From a virus: 20,115 nt of DNA. Numbering within the stretch: the first letter of the stretch is position 1; every line of letters begins with the position of its first letter. Under the pieces are notes generated by a model, which saw only the letters and a list, made by a program, of their open reading frames with translations, searched no databases and was not told the origin of the DNA. Both the position numbers and the translations under genes were made by a program. This document shows positions 1 through 8,837 of the stretch, piece by piece. The stretch is taken from the IMG/VR virus record IMGVR_UViG_3300027848_000597, positions 1 to 20,115 of that record; one strand, 5' to 3'.

Positions 1-774
1 CGCTCCTGCTCCTCCTCGAACACAATTCGATATGAAAGCTGAGGTGTCGCCCTTTTTCTTTTTCTCTTTCTCCCATTTAATGTCAATTGCTTCTCTATGT
101 TCTTTCCATAAGGGCAATCGCCAAGCCCGTTCCCCTTCAGCCTCTGCGACAGCCAAGAATTCCTCAGCTACCCCATCATCGTTGGATAACACGGCTGTTG
201 CCTCCCCCACTGCTGCTGCTGCAGCTCCTGTCAGTGTCGCTATTGTGATTATAAGCCCTGCTTCCCCCCTCACTTTTAGAATTGCGTCTGCTAATATGAG
301 CCTTCCCTCAGCATCTGTATTGTCCACTTCCACCCGAGTTCCATCAGGGTAGGTGAGAATGTCGCCTGGCCTGTATGTATTGTCATGAAATGTGTTCTCT
401 GCACAAGGGGCTAATATAGCCAACGTCGATGAGGGCTTCTGTATATACGCATTCCCTACAGCCAACACTGTTGCAGCCCCCAACATGTCAAACTTCATGT
501 CTTTCATGTTAGCCCCGCCTTTGATGCTAATGCCCCCACTATCAAATGTGACACCTTTCCCTATTAATGCTGTTATCTTATTTCCTCCTCCTAGCACTGT
601 GTTGCCCATATAGGCCTTGTTTCCTCCCACTGCTCTCAACCCCACCAGCCCCTCATCTAAAGCTGCATGTATACTATGTTGAAACTTTCCCGCCAACACC
701 TTAGGCGTCAGCACGTTAGGGGGCATCTGCCCCAGCTCAATTATTAGCTTCTTTCCTTTCTTTATATTTGTCAT
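1..774 (-). CDS. M17 leucyl aminopeptidase catalytic domain (partial, runs off left edge)
   Basis: The protein reads like the catalytic domain of cytosolic (leucyl) aminopeptidases, dinuclear-metal enzymes that remove N-terminal residues from peptides. Visible motifs in order: PPNVLTP near residue 18-24, GKGVTFDSGG with metal ligands K73 and D78, the second lysine K85, MKFDM with D96, then PCAEN, YRPGD and the family signature NTDAEGRL with its D, E and R. Spacing between the ligands equals that of E. coli PepA (K270, D275, K282, D293, D352, E354, R356, from memory). K73 lies about 200 residues earlier than in PepA, so the N-terminal regulatory domain is absent. The ATG at 774 has GGGGGA upstream and overlaps the end of the upstream gene by 38 bp. 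The C-terminus is outside the window. The family call is very secure from the signatures; substrate and role in a phage are unknown. Confidence 0.93.
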   Translation of the reverse strand, partial: MTNIKKGKKLIIELGQMPPNVLTPKVLAGKFQHSIHAALDEGLVGLRAVGGNKAYMGNTVLGGGNKITALIGKGVTFDSGGISIKGGANMKDMKFDMLGAATVLAVGNAYIQKPSSTLAILAPCAENTFHDNTYRPGDILTYPDGTRVEVDNTDAEGRLILADAILKVRGEAGLIITIATLTGAAAAAVGEATAVLSNDDGVAEEFLAVAEAEGERAWRLPLWKEHREAIDIKWEKEKKKKGDTSAFISNCVRGGAGA

Positions 775-994
775 GTTGCTTCCCCCATTTATAATAAGAA
801 TACAGATGCAGAAATATATAAAGTATCCCCGTCACCACGATTCCGTATTGCTTTGATTGCACCCCTAGCGCTATGGTGATTGCCGTCACCGCTACGAACA
901 TCAGCCACCCATTCCTATTGTTGTGTGCCACTTGTATGGAGGCCACTATAGCCCCTATCGGGTAGATTATGTTCAGCACCTCATTAAGTGTCAT
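737..994 (-). CDS. small three-helix membrane protein, unknown function
   Basis: An 85-residue protein with three hydrophobic stretches: about residues 5-23, 29-46 and 49-68, followed by a basic, charged tail rich in K and E. Length and three-helix layout are those of half-transporters such as SemiSWEET, and the third helix ending YSYYKW recalls PnuC-type nicotinamide riboside transporters, but this is resemblance only and no substrate can be assigned. A strong AGGAGG lies just before the ATG. It overlaps the preceding acidic gene by 11 bp and the following aminopeptidase gene by 38 bp, so the three are probably translationally coupled. It sits in the inner membrane if expressed. Confidence 0.8.
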   Translation of the reverse strand: MTLNEVLNIIYPIGAIVASIQVAHNNRNGWLMFVAVTAITIALGVQSKQYGIVVTGILYIFLHLYSYYKWGKQHDKYKERKEANN

Positions 995-1588: not shown

Positions 1589-2527
1589 TTAAATATGGCA
1601 CATACTTCTGTCAAAATCAACTTCCCACTCCAAATATTCAAACAATGTGTCTAAACTGCGCTGTGCGTGCCTAACCCCCATCCCGCTCTTTGCCGCATCT
1701 TTAGCCATCTTGTTTACATCCACTTCTACATGTTCCCCATTCATTCCCATGTTGTCCACTTCTACAAGCTTAGCAGGCAGCAATCTTTCTGTAATGAGAG
1801 TGACATAATCATCCTCAGAGAAAACATCAAGCTCAACTATCTTTGTTATACGCCCCAGCATCTCAGGAATGATGCCACTCTTCAGTAGCTCATCGTCCGT
1901 TATCGCCTTTGTAGCGAGAGCAGTGCTCTCTTCGCCCGTGAATCCCAGCACGTGCTTCTTGACGCGCTTCTTCTCTCTAGTCTCTGTAAACGCCCCGGCA
2001 AACACCCAACTCACTCTTGACATCTCATGCTTGTCATCAATGAGGGTGAGGAAGTTCGATTGAACGTGACTGTTCCACTTCCCGCTGCTCTCGAAAGAGT
2101 TGCCTAGTTTGTCAAACTCGTCTACAAAAACTACTAGCTGAGCTAAAACGCCTTCCCTGCTCTTGAACTTCGACCCTTGCTCTTTAACTAATGCATCAGC
2201 GTATGCTAATATGTTCTTTCGTAACGCAGTTTCTGTAATACCTGTGCTGTTTCCTGTAGGGTTTAGCTTAGTTGCGTCAACGTAGAAGTATGGAAAACCT
2301 AGCTCGTTTCTTAATGTCTCTACAAGAAACGTCTTACCTGTACCGCTTTCCCCCATCAGCAGCAGCTTCATTGGGGACGACAACTCTTTGCGTGACTTTC
2401 CATATGCATGTTCATCAACGTAGTTCCGTTGCGCTCTTACTACAAGAGTGATGAGCGCTTTCTTAGCTGCTTGATGTCCAAACACCTCTTTGTTCATAAT
2501 CTCGAGCAATTGCGCATTGGTTTTCAT
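1589..2527 (-). CDS. ClpX-like AAA+ ATPase
   Basis: A 312-residue AAA+ protein that follows the ClpX core from end to end: N-terminal VFGHQAAKKAL (ClpX: VIGQEQAKKVL), Walker A GESGTGKT (59-66), Walker B VVFVDEFDK (132-140, D136/E137), an FAGAF strand (176-180, ClpX GGAFAG), IIPEMLGR with the arginine finger at R226, and sensor 2 GMGVRHAQRSLD (282-293, R286). An LGF tripeptide at 194-196 sits where ClpX carries its IGF ClpP-docking loop. It lacks the N-terminal zinc domain, the RKH loop and the aromatic GYVG pore loop (NPTGNSTGIT stands there), so it may not thread substrates as ClpX does. AAGGGG precedes the ATG. Role is open: unfoldase feeding host ClpP, remodeller of a replication complex, or inhibitor of host ClpXP. 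Confidence 0.92.
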   Translation of the reverse strand: MKTNAQLLEIMNKEVFGHQAAKKALITLVVRAQRNYVDEHAYGKSRKELSSPMKLLLMGESGTGKTFLVETLRNELGFPYFYVDATKLNPTGNSTGITETALRKNILAYADALVKEQGSKFKSREGVLAQLVVFVDEFDKLGNSFESSGKWNSHVQSNFLTLIDDKHEMSRVSWVFAGAFTETREKKRVKKHVLGFTGEESTALATKAITDDELLKSGIIPEMLGRITKIVELDVFSEDDYVTLITERLLPAKLVEVDNMGMNGEHVEVDVNKMAKDAAKSGMGVRHAQRSLDTLFEYLEWEVDFDRSMCHI

Positions 2528-3543: not shown

Positions 3544-4233
3544 TCAGATAATTTTAAATAACTTCTCCACGGCCTTTTTACTTCCTGTATTTTTAGTTAG
3601 ACTGCTCACTTGCTCTTTTTCCCAAATGCAGTGAAAATCAGAGGGTGCCTCATACTCAGAAACAAAAACTCTATTGTTTTTTGATAGTTGACGCGCCCAC
3701 TCCCAGAATTCGTCACTATCGAACCCATTTCTATACTTTGTAGTGCCCTTATACGGAGGGTCACAATACACTACACAATCGTGTAATTCTAAGGTTCTAT
3801 AATCTTGAACCTCTAATAGAACTCCTTGTAGGAGTGTAGATTGCCTCATTGCGTCTCTATAACTTTCCGCAACATAATCTCTCTCACCCACCGAATCCCT
3901 GCGCCACCCTCCCCACCACTTTCCTCCATAGGACAAGCAATAGCCAGCATAAGAATGTAGTGGATGCAGGACATCTTTTTTAACTAACATATAATCACTT
4001 TCTGTAAATTCTAAGCTAGAGGAAGGTAGTATTTCCAGCCTGTCTCTAATCGTTTTAAGAGCATTAATCGTAGCTGGATGAGAATCAAACCCCTTCCTAG
4101 TGGTGTCTTTGCTTATCTGTTCAATACTGTTACCTCCACCTACAAACGGTTCAACGTAAACATCTCCACGTTTAAGCTGAAATAAAGGTATTAATTCTTT
4201 AATAATACGCTTTTTAGACCCCATATACTTCAT
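3544..4233 (-). CDS. DNA adenine N6-methyltransferase (Dam/D12 class)
   Basis: A 229-residue enzyme of the Dam-like family that transfers a methyl group from S-adenosylmethionine to adenine N6 in a short DNA site. Residues 2-8 (KYMGSKK) match the family's N-terminal motif; the SAM-binding motif EPFVGGGN sits at 28-35 and the catalytic DPPY at 158-161, in the order typical of the class. Length is a little short of E. coli Dam (278). ATG start, with a weak AACA-G-GGAGG-type site upstream. No partner restriction endonuclease is seen in the window, so this looks like a solitary methylase, as phages often carry for protection from restriction or for regulation. Recognition site cannot be read from the sequence. 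Confidence 0.93.
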   Translation of the reverse strand: MKYMGSKKRIIKELIPLFQLKRGDVYVEPFVGGGNSIEQISKDTTRKGFDSHPATINALKTIRDRLEILPSSSLEFTESDYMLVKKDVLHPLHSYAGYCLSYGGKWWGGWRRDSVGERDYVAESYRDAMRQSTLLQGVLLEVQDYRTLELHDCVVYCDPPYKGTTKYRNGFDSDEFWEWARQLSKNNRVFVSEYEAPSDFHCIWEKEQVSSLTKNTGSKKAVEKLFKII

Positions 4234-7379: not shown

Positions 7380-8837
7380 TTGGTCAATAAAACAACGGCA
7401 GAGCTTCAAGAGCTATTAGAGTTGCTTGAGGCCAAAGAGTCCGAACTGCAATACAATAAAATGAACGCTATATTCCCTCTTACAGGACCTTACAGACTAG
7501 AGCTCTACCCCAAGCATGCAGCATTCTTATCAGCAGGCGCAGGACATCAGGAGAGAGCCTTCCTAGCAGCAAACAGAACAGGTAAAACACTCACGGGTGC
7601 ATTCGAAATGGCATGTCACCTTACAGGCGCATACCCATCTTGGTGGAAGGGTAAGAAGTTTCTCAACGCCATAGACGCGTGGGCTGTAGGTGTAAGCAAC
7701 CAAGCAACAAAAGAAATTCAACAATACGAACTACTAGGTGACATATCAGACCCCGGGTCAGGTATGGTTCCTAAGGCAAACATAGTTAGATTCACTAAGA
7801 AGCCCGGAGTTGCGGACGCTATAGAAACACTATACGTAAAGCATTCTTCAGGTGGGATTAGTAAAGTTACATTCAAGAGTTACGAGCAAGGACGGATATC
7901 GTTCCAGGGAACAAAGAAACAATGCGTGTGGCTCGATGAGGAACCTACTGACCAAGGCATATACACTGAGTGTTTGACAAGGTTAATGGACAAATTCAAC
8001 CCCGGCATCATATATTGTACCTTCACCCCTTTATTTGGGCTCTCAGATGTGGTATTATCGTTTATACCGAACGGTTCTTTTCCAGCGGGAGGAACTACAG
8101 TTGAGAATCCCCAGAAGTTTGTAGTGAACGTAGACTGGAGCGAAGTACCTCACTTAGATGAAACACAAAAAGCCAACATATTAAAATCATATTCAGCACA
8201 TGAAAGAGATGCTCGAAGCAAGGGTATTCCTTCGTTAGGTGCAGGTGCCATATACCCCTATTTAGAAGAAAACATCTCATGTGAGGCAAGAGACATTCCA
8301 CCGTGGTGGCCTAAAGGCTTCGGCTTAGACACTGGATGGAGCAGAACCGCAGCCGTATGGGGGGCACGTGACCCTGACAGCGGCATCATGTACATCTATT
8401 CAGAACACTATGCCTCAGAATCTCACCCTGCCATTCACGCCTCTGCTATTAAAGCACGCGGTAATTGGATTATGGGAGCAGCAGACCCTGCGGGCGCTAA
8501 CCAGAGCGACGGCAAGAAGATATTTGACTTGTATGTACAAGAAGGGCTAGACATTGTTAAAGCAGAGAAGGCCGACAGGGAAGGTGGTATATTGAAAGTT
8601 GGTCAAATGTTTGAAAGTGGACAGCTTAAGATATTTAGTACATGTAAGAACATATTAAATGAACTACGGCTCTATAGACGAGACGAGAAAGGCACTATTA
8701 TTAAAAGAAACGACCATGCTTTAGATGCATTACGTTACTTATGTACCACAGGCATGCAATACATGCAGGTGGAACCTGATGGAAGAGGTGGAGAATCCTC
8801 CTCTAATGATTCAAGAGATGAATACACAGGATATTAA
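7380..8837 (+). CDS. terminase large subunit
   Basis: A 485-residue packaging motor that pumps DNA into the prohead and cuts it. ATPase: Walker A ANRTGKT (64-70), Walker B CVWLDEEP (182-189; D186, E187), coupling motif TFTPLFG (214-220). Nuclease: D317 in FGLDTGWSR, D369 in AADPAGA, and NDHALDALRY (D445 and D449), consistent with the RNase H-like metal site. Length is typical of the family. The TTG at 7380 has GGAGA seven bases upstream; the next ATG is about 28 codons later and would cut before the conserved N-terminal region only slightly, so the start is less certain than the family. Confidence 0.96.
   Translation: MVNKTTAELQELLELLEAKESELQYNKMNAIFPLTGPYRLELYPKHAAFLSAGAGHQERAFLAANRTGKTLTGAFEMACHLTGAYPSWWKGKKFLNAIDAWAVGVSNQATKEIQQYELLGDISDPGSGMVPKANIVRFTKKPGVADAIETLYVKHSSGGISKVTFKSYEQGRISFQGTKKQCVWLDEEPTDQGIYTECLTRLMDKFNPGIIYCTFTPLFGLSDVVLSFIPNGSFPAGGTTVENPQKFVVNVDWSEVPHLDETQKANILKSYSAHERDARSKGIPSLGAGAIYPYLEENISCEARDIPPWWPKGFGLDTGWSRTAAVWGARDPDSGIMYIYSEHYASESHPAIHASAIKARGNWIMGAADPAGANQSDGKKIFDLYVQEGLDIVKAEKADREGGILKVGQMFESGQLKIFSTCKNILNELRLYRRDEKGTIIKRNDHALDALRYLCTTGMQYMQVEPDGRGGESSSNDSRDEYTGY

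Follow-up and report, generated by a model that had tools for sequence, protein, structure and literature searches.

The window analyzed here, a stretch of 20,115 bp, is an entire virus record, so that both of its edges are contig ends. At its left edge lies the gene of an M17 aminopeptidase, whose frame runs from an ATG at position 774 to the edge without a stop and encodes 258 residues. The gene is on the minus strand, which the sequence-only reading had left unstated; on the plus strand, frame 1 of positions 1-774 is full of stops. A ClpX-like AAA+ gene, small genes and then the M17 gene follow one another on the minus strand (Table 1). The genes for terminase, portal and capsid are all present in the window, and the terminase is 48% identical to that of EBPR podovirus 1. 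No tRNA was found in the window, and scans for promoters and terminators gave no decisive operon boundary.

Table 1. Positions of the features of the window, with the evidence for each
Feature	Position	Strand	Evidence
M17 aminopeptidase gene, catalytic domain only	1..774	-	PF00883, ATG, homologue L002:3-905, dN/dS
NTDAEGR signature, residues 152-158: ligands D154, E156, catalytic R158	301..321	-	motif position; invariant columns
MKFDM, residues 93-97: ligand D96	484..498	-	motif position; invariant D93 in L002 numbering
GKGVTFDSGGISIK, residues 72-85: ligands K73, D78, catalytic K85	520..561	-	motif position; invariant columns
85-residue membrane protein, PnuC-like C-terminal part	737..994	-	PF04973 E 3.5e-7; phrog_1880 E 3.5e-6
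GGGGGAAG, putative ribosome-binding-like sequence before the M17 ATG, within the end of the upstream gene	779..786	-	sequence; RBS reading inferred
ClpX-like AAA+ ATPase, 312 aa, same minus-strand run as M17	1589..2527	-	NCBIfam ClpX E 5.5e-21
Dam-like adenine methyltransferase, upstream in the minus-strand gene run of M17	3544..4233	-	PF02086 E 2.5e-11
Terminase large subunit; marks the record as a tailed phage	7380..8837	+	PF03237 E 2e-22, PF17289 E 3.3e-13

The sequence-only reading had described the gene as a phage-encoded M17 aminopeptidase consisting of the catalytic domain only, and the profile match, the stop upstream of the gene and the phage genes around it all agree with this description. 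The upstream stop is in frame and lies 20 codons above the ATG; since the region above is also occupied by the PnuC-like gene, which shares 38 bases with the start of M17, the locus does not encode an N-terminal domain. A hidden N-terminal domain or a frameshift was considered and ruled out by the same stop. The PnuC-like product, an 85-aa fragment that corresponds to the C-terminal part only, also resembles phrog_2421 (function unknown).

At the other end, about 47 C-terminal codons of the window M17 were lost at the contig edge. A scan of viral contigs recovered a 93% identical sister locus (L002, contig IMGVR_UViG_3300020201_000441), in which positions L002:3-905 supply the complete C-terminus: the missing 47 residues, ending in FLNGRD and followed by a normal stop. 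The frame break or premature stop that could have lain beyond the left edge is therefore absent from the sister phage. The L002 copy is cut at its own contig edge. Thus both sister-phage contigs break within the M17 gene, at the left edge of the window and at the start of L002, and the twin breaks suggest that the locus varies between strains or that assembly broke off there.

The window M17 matched the Pfam Peptidase_M17 profile (PF00883) with an E value of 1.3e-60 and 205.7 bits (cut-off 25), and the L002 protein scored 247.2 bits. The window protein also matched 35 distinct PDB sequences, with cytosol (leucyl) aminopeptidases on top. Scores against the narrower NCBIfam equivalogs fell below their cut-offs: the best for leucyl aminopeptidase was 182.5 bits against 415, the window copy being cut at the contig edge, and that of the window M17 for PepB (NF003450) was 166.9 bits against 437. 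All five metal ligands (K73, D78, D96, D154 and E156) and both catalytic residues (K85 and R158) were located in the window M17, and these seven columns were invariant in an alignment of 70 viral and bacterial sequences, which confirms the earlier statement that every ligand and the NTDAEGRL signature are present. The signature reads DTDAEGRL in three relatives (G002, G061 and G064). The companion statement, that a regulatory N-terminal domain is missing, holds for the absence of the domain but not for the word regulatory; a more fitting description is that this domain supplies PepA with its main DNA-binding determinants (PMC6245113).

We modelled the L002 protein with AlphaFold2 from the 70 sequences, obtaining a pLDDT of 92.6 and a pTM of 0.92; a version built from five sequences gave a pLDDT of 58 and was set aside. 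The model superposed on residues 180..497 of E. coli PepA (1gyt_A); the 291 structurally aligned residues gave a Z score of 44.4 and 1.5 A, with a sequence identity of about 40%. Comparison of the window and L002 genes gave a dN/dS of 0.069 at a dS of 0.53, pointing to strong purifying selection on the window M17. The window encodes a true M17 aminopeptidase that begins at the catalytic domain, and the complete active site and the fold kept in the model indicate an apparently working version.

The phage protein resembles PepA and the other PF00883 enzymes in its fold, its metal and catalytic residues and its NTDAEGR signature, but it differs from PepA in that the N-terminal domain is absent and the catalytic domain is shorter in its first part. 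The catalytic fold is likewise common to the phage M17 and E. coli PepB (6oad; Z 42.1 over 288 residues), but in PepB the matched domain (chain residues 103-427) is preceded by about 100 residues, which have no counterpart in the phage protein.

IMG/VR profile scans recovered seven M17-carrying contigs of one family of small phages, known from environmental DNA: the window (G000), G001 (which holds L002), G002 (which holds L040), G058, G059, G061 and G064. The seven proteins amount to six distinct sequences, those of G058 and G059 being identical. In the five copies not cut by a contig edge (G002, G058, G059, G061 and G064), frames of 290-302 aa start at the catalytic domain, and all active-site residues were retained among members near 53-55% identity. 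The genomes of the family are about 45 kb in size (45.9 kb for G002), several of them are syntenic, and the M17 gene is patchy among them; G060 lacks it yet carries homologous terminase, portal and capsid genes. As to whether the protein belongs to a viral clade or branches with hosts, the seven phage M17s formed a single clade with a support of 100. Its stem measured 2.29 changes per column, placing the family at great distance from cellular PepA.

Other M17 proteins provided a frame for this clade. The N-terminal domain was present in all cellular M17s examined. Among the best 80 of at least 589 confirmed bacterial matches, 78 are at least 483 aa long, the remaining two are cut by a contig edge, and no catalytic-domain-only M17 was shown. 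The full-length viral M17s (L044-L070 and L073, from large, mostly T4-like contigs) are borne by viruses like the window M17, but they measure 447-495 aa with an extra N-terminal part, and 20 of them formed one clade, a lineage separate from that of the window. Two further viral M17s, L041 (a 5.3 kb fragment) and L042 (the T4-like G004), are also catalytic-only, with 317-322 aa and a dN/dS of 0.136 between them, but they belong to a different phage group, are 38-42% identical to the L002 protein and join its family with a support of only 57. All catalytic-only viral M17s might have had a single origin, for which one tree gave that support of 57 and another two label changes. The T4-like G004 (44 kb) encodes ClpA, ClpX, ClpS and ClpP in addition to its catalytic-only M17 (coordinates L083:165-2473, L083:18242-19452, L042:5021-5323, L084:12335-12919 and L042:4485-4988), together with putative IF3-like and DnaJ-like proteins, which were recognised by eye in the sequence.

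The M17 gene occupies one of two sites, both of which are associated with AAA+ or peptidase genes. One is that of the window and L002; in the window M17 follows the ClpX-like gene, and in L002 a ClpP-like gene is convergent with M17 at a distance of about 33 bases. The order ClpX-like, M17, ClpP-like is a join of these two sister phages, each broken within M17, and the three genes were not found side by side on any one contig of the family. One 45 kb record (G061) does hold all three, with M17 15 kb from the ClpX-like and ClpP-like genes, and in G060, G061 and G066 the latter two are close convergent neighbours with no M17 between them. The second site is found in the five genomes with edge-uncut copies, where M17 follows SpoVR on one strand at a distance of no more than 2 kb, after the PrkA and DUF444 genes. 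The families of these genes were confirmed in the L002 phage, and the homologues in the other genomes were identified by tblastn. The place downstream of SpoVR is taken by a ClpP-like gene in G060 and L038, and no ClpP was found in the 45.9 kb of G002. PrkA-DUF444(VWA)-SpoVR operons were located in phages of about 45 kb at L003:9996-14400, L040:2140-7966 and L038:853-5930, and PrkA homologues occurred in only 16 of 50,697 INPHARED records.

We examined the predicted Clp-like neighbours by alignment. The ClpX-like family in small phages comprises the window gene, G002:44007-44882 and L007:1-657. The window protein scored 74.9 bits against the NCBIfam ClpX equivalog, below the cut-off of 359, and carries a Walker A motif (GESGTGKT, residues 59-66) and a Walker B motif (VFVDEFDK, residues 133-140). 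When its loop was aligned with the IGF loop of ClpX, a ClpP-docking tripeptide was read as LGF at about residues 193-196 of the window protein and as IGF in G002 and L007; the docking capacity deduced from this alignment is putative. The zinc domain and the RKH-loop region are absent, and the pore-1 GYxG motif is replaced by GNST or GNDH, with loss of the aromatic residue. Set against the loop functions described for ClpX (PMC7112951), the ClpX-like protein appears from its sequence to have lost the substrate-gripping features. Instead of unfolding proteins in general, it may dock with ClpP or regulate it, and the family could act as a ClpP-capping or redirecting factor. The ClpP-like protein of the sister phage (L002:938-1471) scored 42 bits against PF00574 (cut-off 20.2). 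Its catalytic Ser (SMG) and His (MFH) align with those of ClpP, and a candidate Asp falls in GKDIY, where the alignment is uncertain. Against the equivalog TIGR00493 it scored 29.5, compared to a cut-off of 308.6; the best NCBIfam match of the ClpP-like proteins was a ClpP-related head maturation protease, and here too the score fell short of the cut-off.

Our first impression, from 28 records, was that M17 travels with Clp genes across viruses. This was rejected by a control set of 32 PhoH-selected T4-like contigs, each of at least 60 kb, and by a distance test. ClpX was present in 17 of the 32 control contigs, ClpS in 19 and M17 in four; ClpX occurred in one of the four M17-positive contigs, compared to 16 of the 28 M17-negative ones. 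The distance from M17 to Clp genes in large T4-like phages was no closer than random placement (combined p 0.32-0.38). Since ClpX is rarer with M17 and the distances are at chance, the co-occurrence in big phages is background. Within one phage family, synteny may be due to plain descent.

M17 enzymes remove N-terminal residues from peptides. The explanation that we favor, and consider reasonably likely, is that the window M17 is a minimal, catalytically competent leucyl-type aminopeptidase that releases amino acids from peptides during infection. It would probably act in the infected cytoplasm, removing N-terminal residues from the short peptides that remain after proteolysis by phage and host; the freed amino acids would return to virion protein synthesis, and the benefit would be greatest under amino-acid or nitrogen limitation. 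YeaG/YeaH, the PrkA/DUF444 pair of E. coli, is a metabolic brake in nitrogen-starved cells (PMC10954441), and in view of this role and of the peptidase and AAA+ genes nearby, amino-acid recovery is the best reading. Hence, among the three roles that the sequence-only reading had offered, peptide breakdown fares best, judged by gene context only. The position of M17 near protein-turnover genes suggests that these viruses help to recycle host protein into amino acids. We infer the activity, substrates, oligomeric state and timing of the enzyme, as well as its benefit to the phage. A more elaborate version is speculative, and we regard it as rather doubtful: phages of about 45 kb would carry a protein-disassembly line of their own, composed of a pared-down ClpX-like motor with its ClpP-docking loop retained, a ClpP-like peptidase of the phage and a one-domain M17 that carries the breakdown of peptides through to amino acids. 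This line would operate jointly with the PrkA-DUF444-SpoVR system of nitrogen starvation, of which these phages have a copy.

The alternative that survives best, although we think it unlikely, is that the enzyme does a narrower job than bulk recovery, trimming the N termini of certain proteins, of the phage or of the host, or those of signalling peptides. Its catalytic site is intact, yet bulk recycling may bring a small phage little benefit where the host has a PepA of its own, and in five genomes the gene lies beside the putative regulatory genes of the PrkA-DUF444-SpoVR group. However, the sequence points to no specific substrate, and M17 enzymes are generally hexamers with their active sites in an inner cavity, an arrangement that favors short peptides (PMC12826064).

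Interference with host PepA, which the sequence-only reading had also proposed, is considerably less probable. The phage protein might co-assemble into the PepA hexamer and block DNA binding at cer or carAB; it keeps the PepA catalytic fold, with the identity of about 40% given above, and mixed hexamers could be defective because the main DNA-binding domain would be absent from its subunits (PMC6245113). However, a protein that only blocks PepA would have no need to preserve all seven active-site residues, which here are under purifying selection, and the great divergence of the clade from cellular PepA (stem 2.29) disfavors co-assembly. The DNA-binding role of PepA rests mainly on the N-terminal domain (PMC6245113), and the absence of this domain from the phage M17 makes a DNA role unlikely.

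The third role proposed earlier, in virion protein maturation, found no support, and we consider it highly improbable. In its favor, profile searches of the window's structural genes turned up no head maturation protease of a conventional kind. Against it, aminopeptidases make no internal cuts; the M17 gene is found either in the minus-strand run of non-structural genes or after SpoVR, and in no case within the head module; and it is patchy (G060 lacks it) while the structural genes are common to the family. It is just as improbable that M17 is a recently captured host gene carried as a functionless passenger, for which its patchy presence would speak, given a dN/dS of 0.07, the active-site residues kept in members near 53-55% identity and a single clade in place of scattered captures.

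The enzyme family is known, but in the libraries and open papers covered we found no earlier description of a phage clade of single-domain M17s. PHROGs gave no match to any M17 protein scanned, and in BFVD only one M17, from a giant virus, matched the fold well. The only clear BFVD match (E 1.1e-26) was the cytosol aminopeptidase A0A5B8IGY4 of Mimiviridae sp. ChoanoV1, a full-length giant-virus protein of 523 aa, unlike the single-domain phage M17. Neither resource thus contains a phage M17, and annotation built on them would miss it. The M17 matches in INPHARED were rejected as phage relatives, as they look bacterial: MT835496 and CAKLQH020000023 carry bacterial chromosomal genes, and the remaining matches were judged by name, size and annotation. 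AGRM01000005, AFYI01000007 and several OR84xxxx/OR85xxxx records are probably bacterial DNA filed as phage too. No phage genome with an M17 aminopeptidase was described in the open-licence PMC literature that we searched, which is a weak negative; a virome enzyme table lists leucyl aminopeptidase with 2 counts and without context (PMC6008428). Jumbo phages also encode ClpP, ClpS, ClpA or ClpX (PMC7824862), but the window family, at about 45 kb, is not jumbo, and that overview mentions aminopeptidase 0 times.

As a natural minimal M17, the phage protein offers a probe of the need for the N-terminal domain in assembly or catalysis. Phages borrow host genes for nucleotide metabolism, energy and translation. 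If they also take over an enzyme that completes protein breakdown, this would suggest that some infections are limited by the supply of amino acids and not by that of nucleotides alone. The same phage family also carries M48-family metallopeptidases (L003:7269-7853, L080:7578-8018 and L080:18969-19703). In the L002 phage, a metallophosphoesterase (L003:7857-9440) measures 527 aa, compared to 256 in its relatives; the insert opens with Cys after VIAGA, closes with HHN before Cys and looks, from its sequence, like an intein with a homing endonuclease.
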